A stretch of DNA of 34,173 nt from NCBI GenBank assembly GCA_003327425.1, contig QOQW01000013.1:125351-159523 (forward strand). The letters run 5' to 3'. This document shows, piece by piece, positions 1-19,864 of the stretch. How positions within the stretch are numbered: the stretch's first letter is position 1; the number at the start of each line of letters is the position of its first letter. The translations under genes were made by a program, and so were the position numbers. The notes under the pieces are model-generated. The model was not told the DNA's origin, searched no databases, and was given only the letters and a program-made list of their open reading frames with translations. Origin of the DNA: Candidatus Ozemibacter sibiricus. GTDB lineage: Bacteria; Muiribacteriota; Ozemobacteria; Ozemobacterales; Ozemobacteraceae.

Positions 1-3000
1 GCGCAGCCCGGAGAGCGTGACCCGATGCTGGGTGGTCAGGCCGCCGCCGTCGACCGCACGCATGGTGTAGCGCCCGGATTCGGTACCATAATCGACCACC
101 GTGGTCGAGTCGGTGTCCGTCTTCCAGGATACCAGGGCCGAGAGCTGCGTGATGTTGGTGGTGATCAGATCGCTGATGATGGGCGGCGCCGCCGATTGGG
201 GAGTCATGAAGGTGTAGTTCTTCGACACGACTTCGAGCCCGGTGATATCCCGACAGCGGACGCGGAAATTGTACAAGGTGTAGGGGTTCAGGCCGGTCAG
301 GCTGACCGCATGGTTCTGCGTCAACTGGAAGGGATCGACGATGCTCGGCGCCTGGAAGCCATAGGCCGTGGTCGGCCCGTATTCGACGAGTGAGGTGGCA
401 GAGGCGGTGCTTTCCCAGGTAATCGAGGCGGTCGTGGCCGTCAGGTTGCTGACCGCGATGGCGCTCAGGGTGAACGGCACGGTGAACGACCGCTCCTCGG
501 AGACGCTGCGATTGCCCGCCGTGTCGGACGACCAGACGCGATAGTACCAGACCGGCGAGACGGTGCCATCGAATCCGGAAATCCGCACCACATGCGCACG
601 AGTGAGCGTCGGATCGAAGGGCGAGGTGGCGGTGTACACTCCGGGGGTCGAGCCCCATTCGACCTGCGAGGTGCTGTTCTCGTCGGTCGTCCAGGTGATG
701 ACGGCCGTCGAGAGCGTCACCTGGCCGGCCGTCACCGCCCAGATCACCGGACCCACCGTATCGGGGGTGGTGAAGGACCGCTCGACCGACAGGCCGCTGT
801 TGCGAGCCAGATCGGTGGCTCGCACGCGGTACCGATAGGCTCGCTGCGGCGTCAGGCCGGTCAACCCGACGACGAAGGTGGTGGTGGCCACGGCATTGGG
901 CAGAGTCGAGAGGGCGAAATCGCCGAAGCCGTATTCCACGGTGGCGAAGGCCGGTTCGCTGGTGGTGAAAGTGATGGAAGCAGTGGTGCCGGTCATGGTG
1001 GCCACCTGCAGATCGCAGACCGTCGGCGGCACCGAATCGACGGTGCGGAAGGGGCCGGCCGCCAGGCTGGCGACATTCCCCGCTTCATCGATGGATGAAA
1101 CCCGATAGTAGTAGTCGGTGTCCGGCTTCAACCCCGACAAGGCCACCTGGTGCCCCAGGACCATGGCGGTGTTGCGCGGCGTGATCATGCCGTAGGCTGG
1201 CGTCAGGCCATACTCCACCTGGGTGGTCGAGGGACGGTTGCTCGCCCAGACGATGGTGGCCGTATTGGCCGTGATCTGCGTGGCCGTCGCGTTGCTCAGC
1301 ACCATGGGCGTGGGGTCGGGCGCGGCCGGCGTGCGGAAGCGCAATTCCCCGCTCATGGCTTCGTTCCCCTGGGCATCGATCGACCGCACCCGGTAGGAAT
1401 ACTGGGTCGAAGGGGACAGGCCAGTCAAAGACACCATGTGGCTCTGGGTCAAGGTGGGGCTGAAGGGGCTCGACCATCCGAAGCCGGCGCTGAGGCCATA
1501 GTCGACCTGCGAACTGCCCGGCTTGGAACTCTGCCAGACGATGGTGGCCGAAGTGGCCGTCACCTGGGTAGCTGAAGCGTTCGACACCGCGATGGGCGTC
1601 ACCTCGAGCATCGTCAGCGTGGTGAAGGTGAACGCCCCGCCGACTGCTTCATTGCCGGCCGCATCTTTCGAGCGCACGCGTACGTGGTACAGGGTGCCGG
1701 GCGTCAGGTTGGTCAGGCGCATGCGATGCCCCTCGACCAGGGTCTGATCGATCTGGGTCGACCACCCATAGGCCGGGGTCAACCCCCATTCGACCTGGGA
1801 GGTCGAGGGCTCATTGGTCTGCCAGACGATGGTGGCGGCGGTCGCCACCACCTGAACGGCGGCCGGCATCGTGATGACCGGCGGGGTGACCTCGGTCGTG
1901 GTGAACTGCTCGAGATCGGACGTGGCGGTGGCGCCAGTGTCGATCCAGGCTTGCACCGTGAAGGTGTAGAGCGTGCCGCCGGTCAGGTTCGACAGGGTGA
2001 ACGAATGGTCTTTCTGCAGGCGCAGGTCAGTACGAGTGGTGGTCTGGGTCGCCGTCTGGGCCTGATAGATGATGCGAGCGGCAGCGTCTTTGTCGGTCTT
2101 GAAGGTGACGACCGCCGACTGGCTGGCGATGCGACTGACCGCGACATTGAAGATGATGGGGGTGGGCGGAGTCGCAGACGCCACGGAAAGGGTGATGAAG
2201 GCCAATGGTTGCGACACCATCGCCGCCCCGCCGGCGGCCTGCACCGAGGCGCGCATCTGGTAGCCGGTTTGCGGAGCCAGATCGGCCAGGAGCGCGGCAT
2301 GGAACCGCCCGGCCGAGCGGGCGGGAATCACCTGGCTCTTCCCGCTGCGGGCTTCGATCAGTTCGACCTGCCCAACACCCTCGGCCGCGGTACTCCAGAT
2401 CACTTCGGCTGTCGAGGCCGTGACCGCCCGGATGAAGGGCCCCAGGGCGGTGGCAGGATCGGCGGGGATCTCAGCAACGATCTCGGCGCCAGGCTCACCT
2501 GTCAGGGTAGGAGTCGTGGGAGCGGGGGGGGACGCCGGCGTCGCGCTGGCGGCTGACGAATTGGTCGGTTCGACCACCACCCGGAACCCCACCGGTCGGA
2601 TCCACCCCGAGCGGATGCGGAAGAACCCGTTCTCGCCCCAGGAAGCCGACCAGGAAGTCTGGCCGATCCAACAGCGCTGCTCGTCGTCATAGCCGACCAG
2701 CAGGAAAGCCAGCTCGCCGACGTCTGGACCGACCGTCGGCTCGTAGATCCCGCCGCGGTAGTAGAAGAAATCGGCCTTCACGGGCATGAGGCCGACCACC
2801 GGCCCTTCCAGGATGGCGGCTTTCAGAGCATCCTCGCCGAGGACGAGACTCCAGGAACGAGCGCGATGCTTGATCTGGCCTGCTTTGGTGACGGGCGGCG
2901 ACGGCACGGTCGCATAGGGGCAGGCCTCTTCGGTGACGACGCCGGTGGTGGTCAGAAAATCGAGGGCCGCGGAAGGATACCATCCGCCCGGCACCGGAGG

Positions 3001-3627
3001 ACGGCCGCCGGTGCCGTGGTACCAGAGGTCCCATTCGGACAGATCGAGACCGTTGGCCGCGGCCGCCTGATCGGTCAGCCGCAGACGCGCCTCGAAGGCC
3101 GCCAGGACCGCGAACGCGACGCCGGTTCCCCACTTGCCCTGGGCCTTGACAGCCGGCAGGAGCCGACCGCCTTCCTGTTCACGCCACGAAAAGCGAGCCG
3201 GAAGGGCGGGAAGCGGTAGTGCGGCGGCGGCCGCCTCAACCGCCACCGCCCCAACGGTCGAGGTGGCGGCTTGCCCCTGGGGCTGCTCGGCGTTCTCGAG
3301 GGTAGCAGAAGGCATCAGGGCCCCCGTCAGGACTGAGGCCGGCACCTGGGGATCGGGCAGGGCCCCGCACAGCAAGGCGGCTTCGGCCTGGGAGAAGCCC
3401 AACGTGACGGCGGTCTCGCCGGCGGTCCAGGATGAGCCGCTCGCTGTCTGCAAGGCGGCGGCGACCTGCGCGAGCGAAAGATCCCAGGCGGGGGGTTCCA
3501 TGACCTGCGGTCCGACGGGAGAGCCGCTCCCTCCGCCTCGGCCAAAACAGCCGGTCAATGTCAAAGTGGCCAGAACCAGTCCACCACAGGCGAACCAAGG
3601 GATGATCCTGCGCAGGGCGCCCTTCAT
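1..3627 (-). CDS. Lipoprotein with catalytically dead papain-like (C1A) domain and tandem FN3 repeats, C-terminus cut by window
   Basis: The frame is open from the ATG at 3627 to the window edge (1209 codons, no stop). The N-terminus is a lipoprotein signal: Lys/Arg, a hydrophobic stretch, then LTGC with Cys27 as the likely lipidated residue. Residues about 140-345 have the C1A peptidase landmarks in order: an FSW start, the QGxxGxxxAF helix, a GGxxxxAxxFL...TEExxPY segment, GPV, a GIY loop, LLVGYDD and SWGENGFFRI. The catalytic residues are all replaced: Gly169 at the Cys position, Leu306 at the His position and Thr324 at the Asn position; Gln163 is kept. From about residue 395 come nine FN3 domains of about 95 residues, the last incomplete, each with a TSA(T/S)I(V/T)W strand, an (E/D)YG or EWG turn and a YxYRVR strand. 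It is probably exported and surface- or periplasm-anchored, acting as a binding or scaffold protein; the ligand is unknown. Confidence 0.9.
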   Translation of the reverse strand, partial: MKGALRRIIPWFACGGLVLATLTLTGCFGRGGGSGSPVGPQVMEPPAWDLSLAQVAAALQTASGSSWTAGETAVTLGFSQAEAALLCGALPDPQVPASVLTGALMPSATLENAEQPQGQAATSTVGAVAVEAAAAALPLPALPARFSWREQEGGRLLPAVKAQGKWGTGVAFAVLAAFEARLRLTDQAAAANGLDLSEWDLWYHGTGGRPPVPGGWYPSAALDFLTTTGVVTEEACPYATVPSPPVTKAGQIKHRARSWSLVLGEDALKAAILEGPVVGLMPVKADFFYYRGGIYEPTVGPDVGELAFLLVGYDDEQRCWIGQTSWSASWGENGFFRIRSGWIRPVGFRVVVEPTNSSAASATPASPPAPTTPTLTGEPGAEIVAEIPADPATALGPFIRAVTASTAEVIWSTAAEGVGQVELIEARSGKSQVIPARSAGRFHAALLADLAPQTGYQMRASVQAAGGAAMVSQPLAFITLSVASATPPTPIIFNVAVSRIASQSAVVTFKTDKDAAARIIYQAQTATQTTTRTDLRLQKDHSFTLSNLTGGTLYTFTVQAWIDTGATATSDLEQFTTTEVTPPVITMPAAVQVVATAATIVWQTNEPSTSQVEWGLTPAYGWSTQIDQTLVEGHRMRLTNLTPGTLYHVRVRSKDAAGNEAVGGAFTFTTLTMLEVTPIAVSNASATQVTATSATIVWQSSKPGSSQVDYGLSAGFGWSSPFSPTLTQSHMVSLTGLSPSTQYSYRVRSIDAQGNEAMSGELRFRTPAAPDPTPMVLSNATATQITANTATIVWASNRPSTTQVEYGLTPAYGMITPRNTAMVLGHQVALSGLKPDTDYYYRVSSIDEAGNVASLAAGPFRTVDSVPPTVCDLQVATMTGTTASITFTTSEPAFATVEYGFGDFALSTLPNAVATTTFVVGLTGLTPQRAYRYRVRATDLARNSGLSVERSFTTPDTVGPVIWAVTAGQVTLSTAVITWTTDENSTSQVEWGSTPGVYTATSPFDPTLTRAHVVRISGFDGTVSPVWYYRVWSSDTAGNRSVSEERSFTVPFTLSAIAVSNLTATTASITWESTASATSLVEYGPTTAYGFQAPSIVDPFQLTQNHAVSLTGLNPYTLYNFRVRCRDITGLEVVSKNYTFMTPQSAAPPIISDLITTNITQLSALVSWKTDTDSTTVVDYGTESGRYTMRAVDGGGLTTQHRVTLSGLR

Positions 3628-4010: not shown

Positions 4011-4454
4011 ATGGCAGACCTGGTGAAATTCTCTGATGCGGCCAATCTGGCAATCCATGCGATGATCGACCTGGCACAGCACCCGGGCGAAGAGGTGCCG
4101 CTCAAAGAGATCGCCCATCGCCTGCAGGCCTCCGAGGCCCACCTGTCGAAGGTCTTGCAGCGCCTGCGCAAAGCCGGTCTCGTCACGGCGTGCCGCGGTC
4201 CGGCCGGCGGCTACCAGCTGGGGCGGCCGCCCGCAGCGATCACCTTCGCAGAGATCTACGAAACCATCGAAGGGCCCATGGAGCCGCATTTCTGTCTGTT
4301 CGGCACCCCCGTCTGCCAGAACCCCGACTGCGGGCTCGGCCACTTCGTCGGCTCGCTCAATCAGCAGTTGAAGGAGTTCCTGTCCAGGTTGACCCTGGCC
4401 GATCTGCCCCTGACCGCGGGCAAGCTGCGAAAGATGAAAATGGCGACGTCCTGA
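4011..4454 (+). CDS. Rrf2-family transcriptional regulator, probable Fe-S redox/NO sensor
   Basis: This is a 147-residue protein, the normal Rrf2 length. Residues 6-75 form the winged helix: an N-terminal DAANLAIHAMIDLA helix, the EIAHRL...SEAHLSKVLQRLRKAGLV recognition region and the GPAGGYQL wing, all close to the family pattern. Three cysteines at 95, 102 and 107 (C-x6-C-x4-C) sit in the loop that binds a [2Fe-2S] or [4Fe-4S] cluster in IscR and NsrR, so cluster sensing is expected. The ATG is preceded by GGAG at 8 nt. It is the first gene of an operon with a ferredoxin-like protein (18-nt gap) and hcp, which suggests it senses NO, hydroxylamine or redox stress and represses its own promoter through the overlapping palindrome. 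Whether it is NsrR-like in effector is inference. Confidence 0.9.
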   Translation: MADLVKFSDAANLAIHAMIDLAQHPGEEVPLKEIAHRLQASEAHLSKVLQRLRKAGLVTACRGPAGGYQLGRPPAAITFAEIYETIEGPMEPHFCLFGTPVCQNPDCGLGHFVGSLNQQLKEFLSRLTLADLPLTAGKLRKMKMATS

Positions 4455-4473
4455 CGCCCACAAGGAGGAACCC

Positions 4474-5337
4474 ATGAAACGCAAGATCATCGAGATCGAC
4501 GAAGAGAAGTGCAACGGCTGCGGCCTGTGCGTCCCCGGCTGCCAGGAAGGAGCGCTGCAGATCATCGACGGCAAGGCCCGCCTGGTCAGCGACGTCTACT
4601 GCGACGGGCTCGGCGCCTGCCTGGGCCAATGCCCGCAGGGCGCCCTGAAAGTGGTGGAGCGCGAGGCGCCCGAATTCGACGCGCAAGCGGTCGAGAACCA
4701 CCTGCGCTCGCTCGGCCGCCCCACCCCGGCCGGGCATGGCTCACCCTCCGGCGCTGTCTCCGCGCCCTCAGGGTCAGCCTCTGATCAGGGTCATGTCCAC
4801 GCGGGTCACCACCATCATCATCATCATGGTCACGGGCCGGGTGGCGGCTGCCCCGGCAGCGTGCTGCGCCGACTGACCCCCGCCCCGACCAACGCGACCA
4901 TTACGACCGCCGCGGCCGCCACCGGTGGCGAAGGGGTGGCCGACGTTCCCCCACCCTCGCAGCTCGGGCACTGGCCGGTCCAGTTGATGCTGGTGCCGCC
5001 GCACGCTCCGTTTCTACAGAATGCCGATCTCGTTCTGTGCGCCGATTGCGTGCCGTTCGCCATCCCTGACTTCCACGCCCGCTACCTGCAGGGGCGCAGT
5101 ATTCTGGTCGGCTGCCCCAAACTCGACGACGCCGCGTTCTACCAGCAGAAGCTGACGGCCATCTTCCAGCAGGCGCGACCGCGGCGCGTCACCGTCCTGC
5201 GCATGGAAGTGCCCTGCTGCGGCGGTCTGACTCAACTGGCTCAGCAGGCGCGCGCCCAGGCCGGCGTCGACGTTCCCCTCGAGGTTCATGTCATCGGCAT
5301 CCAGGGCGGCATCGTGTCGCACCAATCGGCGACCTGA
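4474..5337 (+). CDS. Ferredoxin-like 4Fe-4S protein with His-rich linker, likely electron-transfer partner of Hcp
   Basis: Residues 5-65 are a dicluster ferredoxin domain. The first cluster has a full set of ligands (Cys13, 16, 19, 23). The second motif, CDGLGACLGQCP, has Cys43, Cys49 and Cys53 but Leu46 where the fourth Cys would be, so a [3Fe-4S] or alternatively ligated cluster is possible. A flexible Ser/Gly-rich linker contains a run of about seven His (near residues 111-117), which may hold metal. The C-terminal half (about 165-287) has further cysteines in LCADC, GCPK and PCCGG. A strong AAGGAGG site precedes the ATG. Lying between the Rrf2 gene and hcp, it probably passes electrons to Hcp in the cytoplasm; that pairing rests on gene order, and the C-terminal domain's function is unknown. 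Confidence 0.85.
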   Translation: MKRKIIEIDEEKCNGCGLCVPGCQEGALQIIDGKARLVSDVYCDGLGACLGQCPQGALKVVEREAPEFDAQAVENHLRSLGRPTPAGHGSPSGAVSAPSGSASDQGHVHAGHHHHHHHGHGPGGGCPGSVLRRLTPAPTNATITTAAAATGGEGVADVPPPSQLGHWPVQLMLVPPHAPFLQNADLVLCADCVPFAIPDFHARYLQGRSILVGCPKLDDAAFYQQKLTAIFQQARPRRVTVLRMEVPCCGGLTQLAQQARAQAGVDVPLEVHVIGIQGGIVSHQSAT

Positions 5338-5370
5338 TCGACGTTCATTCCCGGTTTTCCGTCACGCGCG

Positions 5371-5398
5371 GGGGCTATTCCCCGTTGTCCTGAACAAC
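5371..5398 (+). promoter_or_regulatory. hcp leader: short hairpin plus dyad
   Basis: In the 83-nt gap before hcp, GGGG (5371-5374) can pair with CCCC (5380-5383). It is followed at once by the dyad GTTGTCCTGAACAAC (5384-5398), with 5-bp arms around a 5-nt centre. The dyad does not resemble the operator at 3962-3987. It could be a second regulator site or a structured leader; no promoter hexamers are evident here. Confidence 0.35.
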
Positions 5399-5420
5399 AC
5401 ATCATCAGGAGGATTCCATC

Positions 5421-7094
5421 ATGGGTATGTTCTGTTATCAGTGCGAGCAAACGGTCCAGTGCAAGGGGTGCACCCAGGTCGGCGTCTGCGGCAAGGACGC
5501 CCAGACCGCCAACCTGCAGGATGTCCTGCTGCATGTGACCAAGGGCATCGCGCAGTATGCCCACCGCGCTCGCCAGTTGGGCGCCAGCGATCGGAAGATC
5601 GACCGCCAGGTCATCGAGAACCTGTTCACCACGGTCACCAACGTCAACTTCGACCCCGAGCGCGTGCGCCAGTTGATCGAACGGTCGGTGCAGACCCGAG
5701 CCGACGCGAAGGCCCTGTATGAAAAAGCCGCCGCCAAAGCCGGCAAACCCATCGAGAGCCTGCACGGGCCGGCGCAGTTCACGCCGGCCGCCGTCCTGCC
5801 CGACCTCGAGAAGCAGGCCGCCGACGTGGGGATCGAGGCGCGGAAGAAGCGGTATGGCGAAGACATCGCCGGTCTGATGGAGCTGCTCACCTACGGGTTG
5901 AAAGGCACCGCCGCCTACGCCGATCACGCCATGATCCTGGGCCAGGAGGACGAGGCCGTCTATGGGTTCTTCCACAAAGCGCTCGATCTGCTGACGCACG
6001 AGCAGCAGACGGTGGATGAGCTGTTCGCCGCCGCCATGGAATGCGGCCAGATCAACCTCAAGGCGATGGAACTGCTCGACGCCGGCAACACCAAGACCTA
6101 CGGCCACCCCGAGCCGACGAAGATCCGCATCAGCGCAAAGAAGGGCAAGGCCATCCTGGTCTCGGGGCATGACCTGAAAGACCTGCACGAGCTGTTGAAG
6201 CAGACCGAAGGCACCGGCATCAACGTCTACACGCACGGCGAGATGCTACCCTGCAATGCCTATCCCGAACTCAAGAAATTCAAGCATCTGGTGGGCAACT
6301 ACGGCGGCGCCTGGCAGGACCAGGCCAGGGAATTCGAGGCCTTCCCCGGCGCCATCCTGATGACCACCAACTGCATCCAGCGGCCGCGCGATTCCTACAA
6401 GGGCCGGATCTTCACCAGCGGGCTGGTGGCCTGGCCCGGCGTCACCCACATCGCCGACCGCAACTTCGCGCCGGTCATCGCGGCGGCCCAGGCCGCCCCG
6501 GGCTTCCCGGCCGACGAGCCCGAGAAGTTCATCATGGGCGGGTTCGCCCGGAATACCGTGATGAGCGTGGCCGGGCAGGTCATCGAGGCGGTGAAGAAGG
6601 GCGCCATCAAGCACTTCTTCCTGATCGGCGGCTGCGACGGGGCCAAGCCCGGACGCAACTACTACACCGATTTCGCCCAGGCCGTGCCCAAGGACTGCGT
6701 CATCCTGACCCTGGCCTGCGGCAAGTTCCGCTTCAACAAGCTGGAATTCGGCGACATCGGCGGCATTCCGCGCCTGCTCGACGTCGGCCAGTGCAATGAC
6801 GCCTATTCGGCGGTGCAGGTCGCGGTGGCGCTGGCCAAGGCCTTCAACACCGATGTCAACAGCCTGCCCCTGTCGATGGTGCTGTCATGGTACGAGCAGA
6901 AGGCGGTCTGCATCCTGCTCACCCTGCTCTCGCTCGGCATCAAGAACATCCGGCTGGGGCCCTCGCTGCCGGCCTTCCTCACCCCGAACGTGCTGAAGGT
7001 GCTGGTCGAGAAGTTCGCCATCAAACCGATCACCACCGTCAAAGACGATCTCAAGGCGATCCTGCCCACCCACCCCGCCGTCGCCGCGCTGTAA
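5421..7094 (+). CDS. hcp: Hydroxylamine reductase / hybrid-cluster protein Hcp
   Basis: The 557-residue product is full length for the family. The N-terminus has the cubane cluster motif C-x2-C-x8-C-x5-C (Cys5, 8, 17, 23) typical of anaerobe-type Hcp. The hybrid-cluster ligands are all visible in order: His in SGHDLKDLHELL, Glu in YTHGEMLP, Cys in TTNCIQRP, the persulfide-bearing Cys in GGCDGAKPGR, Cys in LACGKFRF, Cys in DVGQCNDAY, and the Glu/Lys pair in WYEQKAV. The enzyme reduces hydroxylamine to ammonia in vitro and acts as an NO reductase or S-nitrosylase in the cells where it has been studied. The start is fixed by AGGAGG eight bases upstream. It is the last gene of the Rrf2-ferredoxin-hcp operon and is followed by a strong hairpin. 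Confidence 0.97.
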   Translation: MGMFCYQCEQTVQCKGCTQVGVCGKDAQTANLQDVLLHVTKGIAQYAHRARQLGASDRKIDRQVIENLFTTVTNVNFDPERVRQLIERSVQTRADAKALYEKAAAKAGKPIESLHGPAQFTPAAVLPDLEKQAADVGIEARKKRYGEDIAGLMELLTYGLKGTAAYADHAMILGQEDEAVYGFFHKALDLLTHEQQTVDELFAAAMECGQINLKAMELLDAGNTKTYGHPEPTKIRISAKKGKAILVSGHDLKDLHELLKQTEGTGINVYTHGEMLPCNAYPELKKFKHLVGNYGGAWQDQAREFEAFPGAILMTTNCIQRPRDSYKGRIFTSGLVAWPGVTHIADRNFAPVIAAAQAAPGFPADEPEKFIMGGFARNTVMSVAGQVIEAVKKGAIKHFFLIGGCDGAKPGRNYYTDFAQAVPKDCVILTLACGKFRFNKLEFGDIGGIPRLLDVGQCNDAYSAVQVAVALAKAFNTDVNSLPLSMVLSWYEQKAVCILLTLLSLGIKNIRLGPSLPAFLTPNVLKVLVEKFAIKPITTVKDDLKAILPTHPAVAAL

Positions 7095-12626: not shown

Positions 12627-13280
12627 CTAGGATGCAGGCGGAGAGCGACGGCGACGGGCCGAGGGCGGCGGCGAGGGCGACGAGGGTAGGCCGGCGCCAG
12701 GGTCGTGGCGGTCGCGGCGGATCAGATACTTGTTGGGCACCACGGTGGTGAGATCGCGCTGCAGCGGGTCATCGCGGCGATCGCGCCAGAGCCGGAAGAC
12801 CTCGACCGCCCGGCGGAAGAGCCAGGGCCCGGTGGTCGGCACCACCAGCGGCACCTTCCCCGACTCGAGCTCGGCCAGACCGAACCAGGCGAACCGGCTG
12901 CCGGCCATGTCATCGCCCGGCTCGATCGGGCCGCCTTCATACGCCATCACGTAGCTGATGCTGAGCATGAACCGGACGTTCTCGTCGTAGTGGAAGCTCG
13001 ACGCATGCACCACGCCCACCGGCCGGACCCGGACCTGCGGCCCCGCCTCTTCGCGCGTCTCCTTGAGCGCCCCCTCGAGGATGGTCAGCCCGGCGTCGAG
13101 GCCGCCATTGACCACCTCCCAGCCGGCGCGCTGCGGATGATGGAGCAGCAGGAATTCCTCGCGGTCGTTGATGATGAAGACGACGACGGCGGCCGGAAAG
13201 CACGGGAAGACCCGCCGGCCATCGGTGGTCGTGACCGTGGGCGGCCCCGCCCGGGGGGAACCTGAACGCGCAGCTGTCAT
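12627..13280 (-). CDS. Nudix hydrolase domain protein
   Basis: The ATG at 13280 has AGGAGA just upstream and overlaps the stop of the giant helicase gene as ATGA, so the 217-residue product is probably made by translational coupling. A Nudix fold is clear: VVFIINDREEFLLLHH, WEVVNGGLDAG and the box GLDAGLTILEGALKETREEAG. Compared with GX5EX7REUXEEXGU, the first Glu is Leu and the Arg is Lys, but the metal-binding Glu residues of the KETREE core remain. The segment after the box (GVVHASSFHYDENVRFMLSISYVM, then FAWFGLAELE) matches ADP-ribose/NTP-type Nudix enzymes in general. The tail is low-complexity Pro/Ser/Arg. The substrate cannot be told; the coupling suggests it serves the helicase protein, for instance by removing a nucleotide product. 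Confidence 0.88.
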   Translation of the reverse strand: MTAARSGSPRAGPPTVTTTDGRRVFPCFPAAVVVFIINDREEFLLLHHPQRAGWEVVNGGLDAGLTILEGALKETREEAGPQVRVRPVGVVHASSFHYDENVRFMLSISYVMAYEGGPIEPGDDMAGSRFAWFGLAELESGKVPLVVPTTGPWLFRRAVEVFRLWRDRRDDPLQRDLTTVVPNKYLIRRDRHDPGAGLPSSPSPPPSARRRRSPPAS

Positions 13281-16200
13281 GATCTCTCCTTCCTCGCCGC
13301 CCCTGGACCATCGTGGGGAAGCGCGACCCGATCGCCCTCGACCACCGCCAGCCCCTGCCTGACCAGCCAGGCGATGCCGGCTTCGGCGAACGCCTGCAGC
13401 CGGGTGGTGACCCGCCGGTAACCCAGGCGGGAGGCCATCTCGCGCCGCAAGTCGATGTGGGGCAGACCGACCGCGGCCTGCAGCACCCGCAGACCGACCG
13501 CCGCCCACTCCTCGACCGGAATGTGCTCAGGATCGCGCACCTCGCCGTCGGGGGCCGGCCCGCGAGGCACCGGCAGATCGCCAGCTACCGCCCCTGCCCC
13601 CGCCGCTCGGCCGCATGACGCCTCGGTCGCCGTCTCGGCCGGCGCCCCGGCGGTCGCGCGGGGAGCGGCCCAGACGAAGCCATCGGCATACCGGCACCGG
13701 CCGGCGGCGGCCGCCGTCTCCACCAGCGCCTCGACGACCTGGCGGGCCCGCTGGCGCGGCTGCTTCACGCCATAGCAGGCGGCCAGCCGGCGCACCAGCA
13801 GGTCGAGATGCAGCGGCGCCTCCACCGCCAGGATGCGCTGGAGCAGGTCTTCAAGCACGGCTTGATGCCCGGGCCGGCCGAACTGGTCGGGCGTGCCCCG
13901 CACTTCGATCGGAAACGCCCGGTACGGGGGCAGGCCGAGAGCGGCTTCGGGGAGCGAAGAGGGCGGGGGTGGCGAGGGTGGCGCCGCGGTCGTCGCGGCG
14001 CCCCCGGCCGGCTCTGGCGCGGCTCGCGTCGCGGGCCCCATCGCTTCGTCGCCCTCGCCCTGGGCGGCGGCCGGCGCGGGGGCGCCCGGCGCAGCCTGGA
14101 CGCAGGAATGGGCCCGACCGTTGGCCGCCCCGTTCCCCGCCGAGGGGCCGTCGTCTTCGACGACCACTACTTCCGGACGGAGGTCGGCATTGGCCCCGGG
14201 CGGCGGCGGCGGCATCGGCTCGGCCCGGGCCGCCGCCAGTCGGCTCCGCAGCCGGCGTAGCTCGCCCTCACGATCGTGCAGCCAGTCGAGCACATGGAGA
14301 CGATGCAACCGCCAGCCCAGGCCGGTCATGACCTCCTGCCGCAGCCGCTCCCGGTCGCGGGCGGTGTGGGCGCTGGCGAAGGCGGGCCCATCGGTCTCGA
14401 TGCCGAGCAGGGTCGCCCCGGTCGCCGGATCGCGCACCGCCAGATCGAGCCGATACCGCGAGAACCCCACGCCCCGCTCGACCAGCCAGCCGTCGGCCGC
14501 CAGAGCCGCCGCCACCTGATCGACCAGGGGCGACAGGGGCGCCGCCGGCGCGGCGTCCCCGGCCCGCACGACCGCCAGCTCATCCCACGCGCCGCCGGCA
14601 TACCGCAGGAATTCCCGCAGATGGCGAACGCCGACCGCCCGCGTGCGCCCCAGATCGATCTGTTCCGGCGACAGGCTGGTGAAGACCTCGAGCCGGCGGC
14701 GGGCCCGCGTGATGGCGACGTTGAGACGGCGCTCGCCCCCCTCGCGGTTGAGCGGGCCGAAGTTCATCGGCAGGTAGCCGGTGGCATCGGCGGCGTAGGT
14801 AATCGAGAAGAGCATCACATCGCGCTCGTCACCTTGGACATTCTCCAGATTCTTGACAAAGACCGGTTCGGGGGCGCGCTCGCCGAAGTACGGTTCGATC
14901 TCGGGCCAGCGACTGCGGGCCTCTTCGAGCAGATCTTCGATCAGGGTCTGCTGGGGCTGGTTGAAGGTGACCACCCCGATCGAGAGCCCTCGGAAGCGCG
15001 GATCGCGCAGATGGGCCACCACTCGCGCCGCGACCGCCTCGGCCTCGGCCCGATTGACCCGGCCCCGCCCCCGCTCGAAGACCCCCGCGACCTTGATGAG
15101 AGCCACGCCGGTGAGGAAGTCTTCCTCGGGCGCCACGACGAGGGGATCGGACGCTTCGGCCCTGGCGGCCGGTTCGGCGACGCCGTTCGCCGCAGAGCGA
15201 GGGACCGCCCGCTCGGGTCGCGGGGCGCCCCGACGGGGGGCAGGGAAGGTCTGCAGGCGATTCTCATAATAATGATGGTTGCTGAAAGCGATCAGACGCT
15301 CATCGCGACTCCGATAGTGCCAGGCCAGCCAGAGGCTGGGCACGTTGGCGGCAACCGCCTCCTCCAGGATGCTTTCGAGATCATGGGTGAGGGGCTGATC
15401 GCTGTCGGGCAGGCCCTGCCCGTCTTCGGCCGCCTCGAGGTCGGTGGCGAAGAAGGTGGTCGGCGGCAGCTGCCGACTGTCGCCCACGATGATGACCTGC
15501 GGGGCGCGGGCGATGGCGCCGATCGCGTCATGGACGGCGATCTGCGAGGCCTCGTCGAAGACCACCAGGTCGAAGCGGTCGGCGGTCGGCGGCAGATACT
15601 GGGCGATCGACAGGGGGCTCATCAGCAGGCAGGGCTTGAGGCGCCCCAACAGCCGGGGGATCCTCTCGAGCAGGCGCCGGATCGGCAGCACCCCCCGTTT
15701 CTTGCGTGCCTCGCGCAGCACCAGGCCGGTCTCGGAGAACCCGTTGAGGACGATGGTCCCGGCGGCGGGGCGCCGCGCGGCGAGGGCGGCGGCCAGTTCG
15801 CGCCGGGCACGGCGGATCAGCTCGCGATCGCCAGTGCGGAACCGCTCGGCCAGCTGCTCATAGGCCTGTCCCGAGAACCGGGCGATCCGGGGTTCGCGGG
15901 CACAGAGCTGTTCATACCGATTCTGGCGGAACCCCCGTTCGAAGACGGCGGCCAGGTCGGCCAGCGGCCATTTCCCCTGCCACAGACCGGCCACCAGATC
16001 GGCCAGGCCGCTCGCTTCGGCCTGGGCTCGCGCCTCGCCCAGCCGGGCCCAGTCGCGCAGATCGCCCAGACTGGCCCGCCACTGGTCGCAGCGCGCCGCG
16101 AGCGCGGCGGGCGTGACCTGGGCCAGACCGGCCGGCCAGGCCTCTTCCAGGCACACCCGCAGGCCGTCCACCACCCGTTGCCAGGCCGTTTCGCAGGCGG

Positions 16201-19200
16201 CCCGGGCCGCCTGCAGCTCGCGCCCCACCGCCGCCGCCACGGCCGCCGGCGGAATGGGGATCGATCGCCCAGGGGCCAGCGGCAAGCGATCTCCCGGCCG
16301 GGTCGCCGCCGCACCGCCTGGTGGGGTCGAAAGGGGCGGTGGCGGAGAAGCTGAAGACACCGTCGCTGGGCCGAGACCGACGGGCATCGCAACCTGCCCC
16401 GAAGCCGCATCGGCCAGCGCTCCCCCAGGCGAGAGCGCAGCGGCAGGTCTCTGAGAGCAGGCGGGCGCCCACGCGCGGTCGGCGGGCAGGGCGGCGACCG
16501 CCGCCGGCCAGTCCCGCAGGAAGCAGACCAGGACGGCCGGACGCCGCTGATCGCCCAGGCTGCCGCGGACGGGTTCGCCATAGCGTTCGGCCAGCTCGGC
16601 TTCGGCCGCGGCGATGGCCCGGGTCAACTCCTGCACCCGGATGCCGTTGTCGAGCTCCTCGAGCAAGCGCGGCAGCTCGGGCAGCTCGCGCGCGGCGAAG
16701 GCGGACAGCTCGGCCCGCGGCCCCCGCAGGTTCCACCAGCGCCAGAGGACGAACGCCTCTCCATACGTGAAGAAGGCGCTCCGCAGGCGCGGCAGATCGA
16801 GGCCGAGCACGCCATCATGGAACCATTGGCGGAGGCGGTCCAGGCGGGCATCCCGCTCGACCGTCAGCGCCAGCAGCGCATCGAGACCGGCGATGGCCGC
16901 CGGCAGCCGGGCCGGATCGGCCAGCAGCTCGGCGGCGCCGGGCGGCACCCCTTCCGCCAGCAGATCGAGCAGGCGGGCCACGGCGGCCAGATCGCCCAGG
17001 CGCAGCTCCCAGCCGAGCGCGAGAAGGTCGGCCGCCCGCGCGGCGGCGGCCTGCAGGGCGCGCGCGGCCGCGGCGGCCGCGGTCAGCTCTTCCTCGCGGG
17101 CGCGCGCCGCGCCGGGGGTCCAGGTGGTGATCCGGCAGGGCCCGAACGGATGCCGGGCCGGCGGCTCGAAGCGGGCGGCCGCCACGATCAGATCGGCGAC
17201 CCGGGCCCGGGCGGCGGCCCGCCGAGCGTCGTCCCAGGCGAGGGCGTCGGGCAGCTCGAACTCGGGGCGGGGCGGGAGCGGCGCGGCGCTCAGCCAGGCG
17301 GCGGTGGCATGGTGGGTTTCGCCGAGCGGGGTCGGCCCGTGCAGGAGGGCCACCACCGCGTTCATCTCGTCGCGCGCCGCCGCCACCTCCTGACGCAGGG
17401 CGGTGGCCGGGGGTTCGGCCAGCCCGGGGCCGAGCGCCAGCACCCGAGCCAGTTCGGCGGCGACCTCCCGCTTGTTGGCCCGGTTGCTGTGCAGTTCGAG
17501 GCAGGCATCGCCCAGGCCGGCCTGCTGCAGACGCCGGGCCACCACCTCGAGGGCGGCCCGCTTCTCGGCGACGAAGAGCACCCGCTTGCCATCGGCCAGG
17601 CAGGCAGCGATCAGATTGGCGATGGTCTGCGATTTCCCGGTGCCGGGCGGGCCCTGCAGGACGAACGTCTGGCCGCGCCGGGCGGCCTCGATGGCGAGCA
17701 ACTGGCTGGCATCGGCGTCGAGCACGAGCGGCGGACGGCCGGGCTCGAACACCTGATCCAGCCGATCGGCCGGGATGGCGTCCGGGGGGGCGCCTCCCGG
17801 GCTCGTCGTGCCGTCGATCAGATGGCGCACCAGCGGATGCTGCGCCAGATCGGCGTGATGGGCATCGAGGTCGCGCCACATCAGGAATTTGGTGAACGAA
17901 AAGAAGCTGATCTCGGCCCGATCGATCACATCGAACCGGGGAACCCGCGCCGTCACCGCGCGCAGGATGCGCAGCACCCCAGCCAGATCGATGCCCGAAT
18001 CGTCGAGCGGCATGGTCTGCAGATCGGAGAAATCGAGACCGAAGCTCAGGCGCAGCTTTTCGAGGAGGGTGTCGTTCAGGCGCGGCTCGTCGTCGCGCCA
18101 GCGCATGACGAAGCGCCCGCGCAGGCTGGGACGGACGATCTCGATCGGATAGAGCAGGATGGGCGCCAGAAGCGCTTCCGAAGCGGAAGGCGATTCGAAC
18201 CAGCGCAGGAAGCCCAGCGCCAGGAACAGCGTCGAGGCGCCGGTCTCTTCGAGCTCGGCCCGCGCCGCCCGGAAGACGATGCGCAGCCGCCGGGCCAGCT
18301 CGGCCTCGTCGAGCGCGGTCAGCACCCGACGCTGGGCCAGCAGCCGCCGGCACTCGGCCCGAAACTGGTCGGCGCCGCCCGCCTGCTCGACCAGGGGCGC
18401 GGCCCGCGGGTCATCGGCGCTGGCCATGACATGGGGCTCGAGCACGAGGTCATGGCCGGCCGCCATCAGATCTTCGAGACCAGGCAGATCGTCGATGGCC
18501 AGGGGAATGGCGCGATCGCGCGAAGGCCGGTAATTGAGCAGCCGATTGCGCAGAGACAGATCGAGCAGCCGGGCTTTCCAGGCCCGCAGGCGGGCCGGCT
18601 CGGGCTCGCGACCGGCCCCCGTCGCCGCGGCGGCGCCCGCGCCGACCGCCGCCAGGTCCGCGGCCTCGACGCCCGCCCCTCGGGCAGCCGTGGACCCGCC
18701 CTCGACCAGCCACCGGTCCGCGGCCGGCCCCGCCGTTCCGGCTTCGGCGGCCGCGCCCGCCTCGCCCGCCGACCGAGCGGCCGCGCCCGTTCCCTTCCCA
18801 CCGGAGGTGGGACCCAACCCGAGCGGCTGTTCCCACGGTAGCGGCAGGATGCGAGCCAGTCGCGAGGCGCGCACATCAACCAAACAGGCGATCTCTTCCA
18901 TCTCGAGGCGGCGGTCGGCCAACTGTACGGCCTGGGCGAAAAGCGGCGGCGTGGGCTGCAGGGCAGAGGTGCCCTCGAAGAGGAGCAGATCTCGGCAGCG
19001 CACCAGCTTGCGCGGCACGTCGGGGTCATCGGTCACGGTGACCGGCAGCCATTCGTCGATCAGCCAGACGCCGGGCAGGACATGGCTGCGGAAGACCGCC
19101 AGCACCGGATGGAGGCCCGCGCCCTCGAACAGCGCCGCGGCCAGCAGCGAGACCTCGAGACAGTTGGCCAGACGGTGGCCGAGCAGGTCATCGGGCCGCC

Positions 19201-19864
19201 GGATCTTCTGCCCCGTCGTCTCGAACGAGGGCGGCGCCACGGCGTAGGTCAGCCCCAGCCCGGCCAGGGTGCGATAGACCGCCTCCGCCACCTGCCGGCG
19301 CCGTTGCCGATCGGGCGAGCGATACCCATCGAGCGTGGGATCGTCGGTGAGGTCGCGCAGGTGATCGCGCACCACCGGCAGGAGGGCGGCCACGGCGGGG
19401 TGGGCGGGCGTGACGAAGGCGGCCAGCAGCTCGGGCAGGCGGGTGCGGTCCCATTCGTTGGCGGCCAGGATCTCGCAGGCGAGATCGACTCGGGCCAGAT
19501 CGGTCGCTTCCCCGGCCGGCCCGGGCTCTGGCGCGCGCCGCACCGCCAGTTGCACCATCAACGCCCGACGCTCGGTCGCCCCGCGTAGGAGCGCCTCGGG
19601 CAGAGACACCGCCACCGGCTCGCCGACCCAGACACCGCCAGCCGGAATCGCCGGCAGAGCCAGATGCAGAAGAGGAATCGCCTCGCCCGGCAGGCGGGCT
19701 TCGAACCAGGCGCCGACCAGCGGCGCGGCCCCGGCGTTGCGAACCTCGACCCGTCGCAGGAACGGGACCCCATTGGCCGCCATCGCCCAGGACACGCGGG
19801 TCTCGCCATCCACCCGCAGCCCGATGCCGCGATTGTCGCCTGGCATGTCCATGGCTCGGATCAT
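13277..19864 (-). CDS. Giant DUF4011 superfamily-1 helicase with MTES_1575-type nuclease and DUF3320 domains
   Basis: The product is 2195 residues. Residues about 200-275 look transglutaminase-like, with Cys in RLANCLEVS (near 234), His in FRSHVLPG (near 259) and Asp in WLIDEW (near 267). DUF4011 begins with WKARLLDLSLRNRLLNY (near 430). The SF1 helicase follows: Walker A GPPGTGKSQ (near 738), a helical insert of about 700 residues, Walker B VVFDEAS (near 1434), GDSRQLPP, WHYRSRDE, NVQGDERD and NVAITRARRRLEVF (near 1715). A PD-(D/E)XK-type nuclease has SRYRLDLAV, IETDG and ARDRERLRQEV...GWRLHRLHVLDW (1800-1860). DUF3320 and a winged-helix-like region end the protein, with Ala/Gly/Pro-rich linkers between domains. 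The same architecture is found in anti-phage candidates (Hhe-type); a defence role is inference. ATG 19864 has GGGAGG upstream; ATG 19852 fits a leaderless promoter. Confidence 0.9.
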   Translation of the reverse strand: MIRAMDMPGDNRGIGLRVDGETRVSWAMAANGVPFLRRVEVRNAGAAPLVGAWFEARLPGEAIPLLHLALPAIPAGGVWVGEPVAVSLPEALLRGATERRALMVQLAVRRAPEPGPAGEATDLARVDLACEILAANEWDRTRLPELLAAFVTPAHPAVAALLPVVRDHLRDLTDDPTLDGYRSPDRQRRRQVAEAVYRTLAGLGLTYAVAPPSFETTGQKIRRPDDLLGHRLANCLEVSLLAAALFEGAGLHPVLAVFRSHVLPGVWLIDEWLPVTVTDDPDVPRKLVRCRDLLLFEGTSALQPTPPLFAQAVQLADRRLEMEEIACLVDVRASRLARILPLPWEQPLGLGPTSGGKGTGAAARSAGEAGAAAEAGTAGPAADRWLVEGGSTAARGAGVEAADLAAVGAGAAAATGAGREPEPARLRAWKARLLDLSLRNRLLNYRPSRDRAIPLAIDDLPGLEDLMAAGHDLVLEPHVMASADDPRAAPLVEQAGGADQFRAECRRLLAQRRVLTALDEAELARRLRIVFRAARAELEETGASTLFLALGFLRWFESPSASEALLAPILLYPIEIVRPSLRGRFVMRWRDDEPRLNDTLLEKLRLSFGLDFSDLQTMPLDDSGIDLAGVLRILRAVTARVPRFDVIDRAEISFFSFTKFLMWRDLDAHHADLAQHPLVRHLIDGTTSPGGAPPDAIPADRLDQVFEPGRPPLVLDADASQLLAIEAARRGQTFVLQGPPGTGKSQTIANLIAACLADGKRVLFVAEKRAALEVVARRLQQAGLGDACLELHSNRANKREVAAELARVLALGPGLAEPPATALRQEVAAARDEMNAVVALLHGPTPLGETHHATAAWLSAAPLPPRPEFELPDALAWDDARRAAARARVADLIVAAARFEPPARHPFGPCRITTWTPGAARAREEELTAAAAAARALQAAAARAADLLALGWELRLGDLAAVARLLDLLAEGVPPGAAELLADPARLPAAIAGLDALLALTVERDARLDRLRQWFHDGVLGLDLPRLRSAFFTYGEAFVLWRWWNLRGPRAELSAFAARELPELPRLLEELDNGIRVQELTRAIAAAEAELAERYGEPVRGSLGDQRRPAVLVCFLRDWPAAVAALPADRAWAPACSQRPAAALSPGGALADAASGQVAMPVGLGPATVSSASPPPPLSTPPGGAAATRPGDRLPLAPGRSIPIPPAAVAAAVGRELQAARAACETAWQRVVDGLRVCLEEAWPAGLAQVTPAALAARCDQWRASLGDLRDWARLGEARAQAEASGLADLVAGLWQGKWPLADLAAVFERGFRQNRYEQLCAREPRIARFSGQAYEQLAERFRTGDRELIRRARRELAAALAARRPAAGTIVLNGFSETGLVLREARKKRGVLPIRRLLERIPRLLGRLKPCLLMSPLSIAQYLPPTADRFDLVVFDEASQIAVHDAIGAIARAPQVIIVGDSRQLPPTTFFATDLEAAEDGQGLPDSDQPLTHDLESILEEAVAANVPSLWLAWHYRSRDERLIAFSNHHYYENRLQTFPAPRRGAPRPERAVPRSAANGVAEPAARAEASDPLVVAPEEDFLTGVALIKVAGVFERGRGRVNRAEAEAVAARVVAHLRDPRFRGLSIGVVTFNQPQQTLIEDLLEEARSRWPEIEPYFGERAPEPVFVKNLENVQGDERDVMLFSITYAADATGYLPMNFGPLNREGGERRLNVAITRARRRLEVFTSLSPEQIDLGRTRAVGVRHLREFLRYAGGAWDELAVVRAGDAAPAAPLSPLVDQVAAALAADGWLVERGVGFSRYRLDLAVRDPATGATLLGIETDGPAFASAHTARDRERLRQEVMTGLGWRLHRLHVLDWLHDREGELRRLRSRLAAARAEPMPPPPPGANADLRPEVVVVEDDGPSAGNGAANGRAHSCVQAAPGAPAPAAAQGEGDEAMGPATRAAPEPAGGAATTAAPPSPPPPSSLPEAALGLPPYRAFPIEVRGTPDQFGRPGHQAVLEDLLQRILAVEAPLHLDLLVRRLAACYGVKQPRQRARQVVEALVETAAAAGRCRYADGFVWAAPRATAGAPAETATEASCGRAAGAGAVAGDLPVPRGPAPDGEVRDPEHIPVEEWAAVGLRVLQAAVGLPHIDLRREMASRLGYRRVTTRLQAFAEAGIAWLVRQGLAVVEGDRVALPHDGPGAARKERS

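Follow-up and report, generated by a model that had tools for sequence, protein, structure and literature searches.

The window, the whole stretch of 34,173 nucleotides that was analysed, carries at its left edge a gene for a putative lipoprotein whose papain-family (C1A) domain has lost all three catalytic residues. Judging from the protein and its relatives, we consider it about 80% probable that the domain is a secondarily inactivated protease, that the triad disappeared a single time, before two species of a Riflebacteria (Ozemobacteraceae) genus diverged, and that the domain has been selected as a non-catalytic module.

Read from the minus strand, the gene starts with an ATG at window position 3627 and crosses the left edge of the window. 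The whole open reading frame (L002:5555-10978, minus strand) encodes 1807 aa, of which the window holds aa 1-1209; about 1.8 kb more lies outside. From N- to C-terminus the protein comprises a signal peptide with lipobox, a propeptide-like segment, a linker, the Peptidase_C1 domain, a second linker and an array of FN3 repeats. The features are as follows (all on the minus strand; dN/dS values are rough):

1..3627, minus: pseudo-cathepsin/FN3 lipoprotein gene (ORF; same-genus orthologue of 1819 aa, 82% identical)
3547..3627, minus: signal peptide and lipobox LTGC with lipidated Cys27 (pattern match in both species)
3352..3495, minus: propeptide-like segment, aa 45-92 (alignments, dN/dS 0.108, Foldseek zymogen matches)
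3208..3351, minus: fast-evolving linker, aa 93-140, from the propeptide-like segment to the C1 domain (dN/dS 0.79, 95% 0.46-1.34)
2605..3204, minus: Peptidase_C1 domain of papain/cathepsin type, aa 142-341, inactive by sequence (PF00112, PDB phmmer matches to cathepsins, AF2, Foldseek)
3121..3123, minus: Gly169 at the catalytic Cys position (alignments)
2710..2712, minus: Leu306 at the catalytic His position (alignments)
2656..2658, minus: Thr324 at the catalytic Asn position (alignments)
2443..2589, minus: fast-evolving linker, aa 347-395 (dN/dS 0.49)
1..2442, minus: FN3-type repeats, aa 396-1209, the array running on to aa 1807 (PF16656/PF00041; dN/dS 0.133)

The original prediction of a lipoprotein with a signal peptide is borne out by the lipobox: a hydrophobic stretch is followed by LTGC, which matches the pattern [LVI][ASTVI][GAS]C and places the lipidated Cys at position 27 in both species. 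The nine FN3 domains first counted agree with the approximately nine units inside the window (about eight complete, the last one cut by the window edge), but the whole protein has about 15 by eye; the FN3-like PF16656 model alone matches 12 in the gene.

The Peptidase_C1 profile PF00112 matches aa 142-341 with an E-value of 1.2e-22 and a score of 81.5 bits, against a curated cut-off of 20.7. The motif QGKWGTGVAF begins at aa 163, GELAFLLVGYDD at aa 304 and GQTSWSASWG at aa 322, which fixes the substitutions exactly as Cys to Gly169, His to Leu306 and Asn to Thr324. Pairwise alignments to solved cathepsins, the family alignment and the profile alignment all agree on these calls, so that both the C1A scaffold and the three replacements proposed at the outset stand. 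The oxyanion-hole Gln163 is retained. By sequence, the domain is thus a homologue of family C1A that does not have the Cys, His and Asn of a peptidase. The only cysteines of the domain are Cys236 and Cys319, each of which also occurs in some active relatives, and the family alignments revealed no Cys-His pair in the active-site columns; an intact pair elsewhere in the domain, which would have spoken against the loss, was rejected since both cysteines are found in active relatives. A sequencing or assembly error was likewise rejected, because the separate assembly of the second species shows the identical state.

The replacements are set in a well-preserved framework. Fifty-six columns are invariant in the five nearest active domains, and 44 of them are kept in both species. 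Among the 12 that are changed, four are invariant across all aligned active domains (C169G, H306L, N324T and Y340S), and the column of Y166W is conserved at 94%. The change of the triad and of Tyr340, together with the retention of 44 of the 56 columns, indicates that the active site has been dismantled and the scaffold retained.

The predicted structure agrees with this assignment. AF2, given aa 44-356 and 19 sequences, produced a model with a pTM of 0.76 and a mean pLDDT of 76; most of the domain lies above 75 (ten-residue blocks mostly 75-96) and the linker below 50. In a Foldseek search against the PDB, the best match was procathepsin B (E 6.1e-14), with target TM scores of up to 0.81. The top 11 matches are all cathepsin B entries, with E-values from 6e-14 to 7e-13, and nine of them are labelled as zymogen or pro-form; other papain-family enzymes rank below them. 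The triad-intact relative L057 gave similar matches. The model is thus papain-like, as proposed at the outset.

The conserved segment at aa 45-92, which the original prediction had missed, carries the motif W-x-A-G-x-T-x-V-T ... L-C-G, also seen in the alignments of active relatives. Its placement as in a cathepsin B zymogen is suggestive only, because the structural alignments to the zymogens have rmsd values of ~4-9 Å, and it relies on the motif and on a model of moderate pLDDT. At the sequence level a cathepsin B propeptide could not be demonstrated: neither Pfam (propeptide families) nor PDB sequence-profile searches returned a match for the segment.

To place the substitutions among related domains, we compiled 165 distinct C1 domains by searching 382 genomes and scanning GTDB. 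In this sample, which is biased to better-scoring domains and serves as a guide rather than a census, 160 domains were readable at all four sites (oxyanion Gln and triad): 157 have Q-C-H-N, two have Q-G-L-T and one has H-C-Y-N. The two Q-G-L-T domains are that of the window protein and that of its orthologue in G002; such a distribution, 2 of 160 against 157 with the intact state, is more than chance. The G/L/T state is carried by these two species only, and the proposed survey of related genomes accordingly turned up the same substitutions in the G002 orthologue alone. This orthologue, from the same genus, has 1819 aa and is 82% identical (80% in the domain), and it is flanked by the same gene neighbours. 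The third species of the genus examined, G001, has the neighbours without the gene; at its syntenic site (L116:9521-10591, G001:C61) a PIG-L-like deacetylase gene, so named by eye, is found in place of the pseudo-cathepsin gene. This difference reflects either a gain in two species or a loss or replacement in one.

Five other close domains have an intact triad, from G003 (two copies), G010 and G014 of the same family and from an Omnitrophota-labelled contig (L059); the C1 domains of G003, G010 and G014 are 36-46% identical to the window domain. One of them, L034 (G003, another genus of the Ozemobacteraceae), has Q-C-H-N and the same layout of C1 domain and FN3 repeats, with 33% identity over 1672 aa. 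A lipobox is present in L034 and L036, and L035 and L059 have a lipobox-like Cys. In the tree, the Q-G-L-T pair forms one clade (support 100/100) with L034 as sister (90/72), and a single change of state suffices. The stem of the pair has a length of 1.07, its precise value being uncertain owing to the unusual letter make-up of the pair, and the tips have lengths of 0.13 and 0.16.

The survey also brought up two unconnected observations. The H-C-Y-N domain (L217; G130:C75:26444-27619, minus strand) is also bacterial but unrelated to the pair; Tyr replaces its catalytic His, and an Ig-like domain follows it. Its oxyanion Gln reads as His, in a part of the alignment that is uncertain. It is a candidate for a second bacterial C1 pseudoenzyme. 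A genome of the same phylum (G026) has at least 27 Peptidase_C1 matches, far above its relatives, and those full-length domains that were read are intact.

We estimated selection by the Nei-Gojobori method from the window gene and its G002 orthologue; since dS is ~1, the following dN/dS values are rough. They are 0.110 (95% 0.066-0.175) for the C1 domain, 0.108 (0.040-0.221) for the propeptide-like segment and 0.133 (0.110-0.157) for the FN3 repeats, against 0.79 (0.46-1.34) for the linker at aa 93-140 and 0.49 (0.21-1.01) for that at aa 347-395. The linkers provide an internal control, showing that the domain is constrained as tightly as the FN3 rod. These values bear on the simplest alternative, namely that the C1 domain is a functionless, decaying relic carried along with a needed FN3 part. 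Such decay could account for the change of all three catalytic residues and for the patchy occurrence of the gene within the genus. It does not fit a dN/dS of the domain as low as that of the FN3 part next to much higher values in linkers of the same gene, the 82% identity despite a dS of ~1, the absence of any stop or frameshift, or the 44 of 56 columns kept in both species. The relic reading is already largely refuted, and we regard it as very unlikely. The evidence instead supports a predicted pseudoenzyme that is maintained by purifying selection and arose once: the domain is homologous to active enzymes, has lost their catalytic residues and is kept by selection. The original proposal that the fold is kept by selection for a binding function is consistent with the measured constraint as regards selection; a binding or other non-catalytic role would be the natural reading.

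A second alternative takes its cue from TrCB1.6, a cathepsin B paralogue with a Cys-to-Gly change that binds cystatin, though not in its pro-form, and for which a decoy role has been proposed (PMC7054455): by analogy, the window protein might draw inhibitors away from an active C1 protease. The comparable loss of Cys on a retained cathepsin B-like fold would suit this role. A genome search, however, found neither an active C1 paralogue nor any other C1 domain to be protected, and no chagasin-type (I42) inhibitor, although inhibitors from other organisms might be the target. Furthermore, it is the unprocessed form of TrCB1.6 that fails to bind cystatin, and the window protein is not expected to process itself. 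A decoy role is therefore very unlikely. That the domain is still an enzyme with another nucleophile is hardly credible: Gln163 and the adjoining Thr168 are retained and two His residues (204 and 254) are present, but the nucleophile position has neither Cys nor Ser, the base position has no His, and Thr168 is equally found in active relatives and both cysteines in some of them, so that none of these is a new nucleophile.

For the selected, non-catalytic module, the layout of the protein suggests how it may work. The ancestor would have been an active lipoprotein zymogen of the same layout, with a lipid anchor, propeptide-like segment, protease and FN3 rod. In the predicted active relatives the propeptide would carry the lipid anchor, and self-cleavage in the linker between the propeptide-like segment and the protease would release both protease and FN3 rod. 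Since self-cleavage would not be possible in the window protein, its propeptide-like segment should remain attached, where it may fill the old active-site groove, and the protein should stay permanently tethered. The loss of the enzyme would then amount to a switch from a released to an anchored protein. We offer this conversion of a self-releasing zymogen into a tethered rod, its groove plugged by its own propeptide, as a tentative and distinctly less probable proposal than the inactivation itself.

Because the lipid on Cys27 is N-terminal to both the pro segment and the C1 domain, the domain is expected to lie near the membrane with the FN3 array reaching outward. The picture of a secreted pseudopeptidase carried on an FN3 stalk is accordingly doubtful and should probably be turned around: the anchor adjoins the inactivated domain and the rod should point away from it. 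The domain would now form the base of a long, membrane-anchored rod, with a binding or a structural role. The propeptide-like segment, constrained like the domain itself, is a specific clue to how the latter works.

Next to the gene, on the plus strand, lies a divergent block (window 4011-7094) that encodes an Rrf2-type regulator (4011-4454), a 4Fe-4S protein (4474-5337) and a hybrid-cluster (prismane) protein (5421-7094). The block resembles a nitrosative-stress module and is kept in both G001 and G002. No functional link between it and the lipoprotein is claimed, as G001 keeps the block without the gene and has the PIG-L-like gene instead. Further along, on the minus strand (13277-19864), a 2195-aa protein combines DUF4011, AAA_11/AAA_12 helicase parts, an MTES_1575 endonuclease-like domain and DUF3320; its make-up resembles that of a defence-type helicase-nuclease.

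Among eukaryotes, parasites included, pseudoenzymes of the papain family are well known; for bacteria, the open-licence literature searched yielded no description of a C1A case of such architecture. Within that literature the original statement that such proteins are not described stands for bacterial C1A domains, but it has to be narrowed in view of eukaryotic and family C2 cases (PMC7054455, PMC5956821, PMC4631099). TrCB1.5 and TrCB1.6 of Trichobilharzia regenti share the Cys-to-Gly change and the cathepsin B fold; only the Cys change is described for them, and they come from an animal parasite that also has active paralogues, and lack both FN3 repeats and a bacterial lipid anchor (PMC7054455). 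The SMIPP-C proteins of Sarcoptes scabiei have lost both Cys and His, with His replaced by Gln or Leu (Leu in three of five), but their Cys is changed to Ser and they exist in several copies, alongside active paralogues, in an animal (PMC5956821). In Plasmodium falciparum SERA5, a papain-like domain is likewise kept for a non-enzymatic role, although its catalytic Cys is Ser and the protein is eukaryotic and of another architecture (PMC4671257, PMC5500368). Non-peptidase homologues are frequent in calpain family C2, which shares the papain-like fold of Clan CA and the loss of catalytic residues, and include one bacterial sequence (Frankia) without the Asn; they belong to a different peptidase family and do not have the FN3-lipoprotein layout (PMC4631099). 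Prokaryotic multidomain C1A proteins are not analysed in a published phylogenomic study covering the papain family, whose table of evolutionary forces has a row for 'loss of active site' (PMC10380794).

With cathepsin B and other C1A peptidases the window protein shares the fold, the oxyanion Gln and the VGYDD and SW...WG motifs, zymogens being the top structural match; it differs from them in the absent triad, in carrying Trp166 where the first conserved Cys would be, and in being a bacterial lipoprotein with an FN3 rod. The C1A/FN3 lipoproteins of the same family (such as L034/L057, 1739 aa) have the lipobox, the W-x-A-x-x-T motif of the propeptide-like segment, the C1 domain and the long FN3 array in common with it. 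They differ in that Cys, His and Asn are intact, so that they are predicted to be active, and no shared gene neighbours were found. Since another genus of the family has an intact relative with matching layout, what becomes of a protease domain after cutting ceases can be studied by direct comparison.
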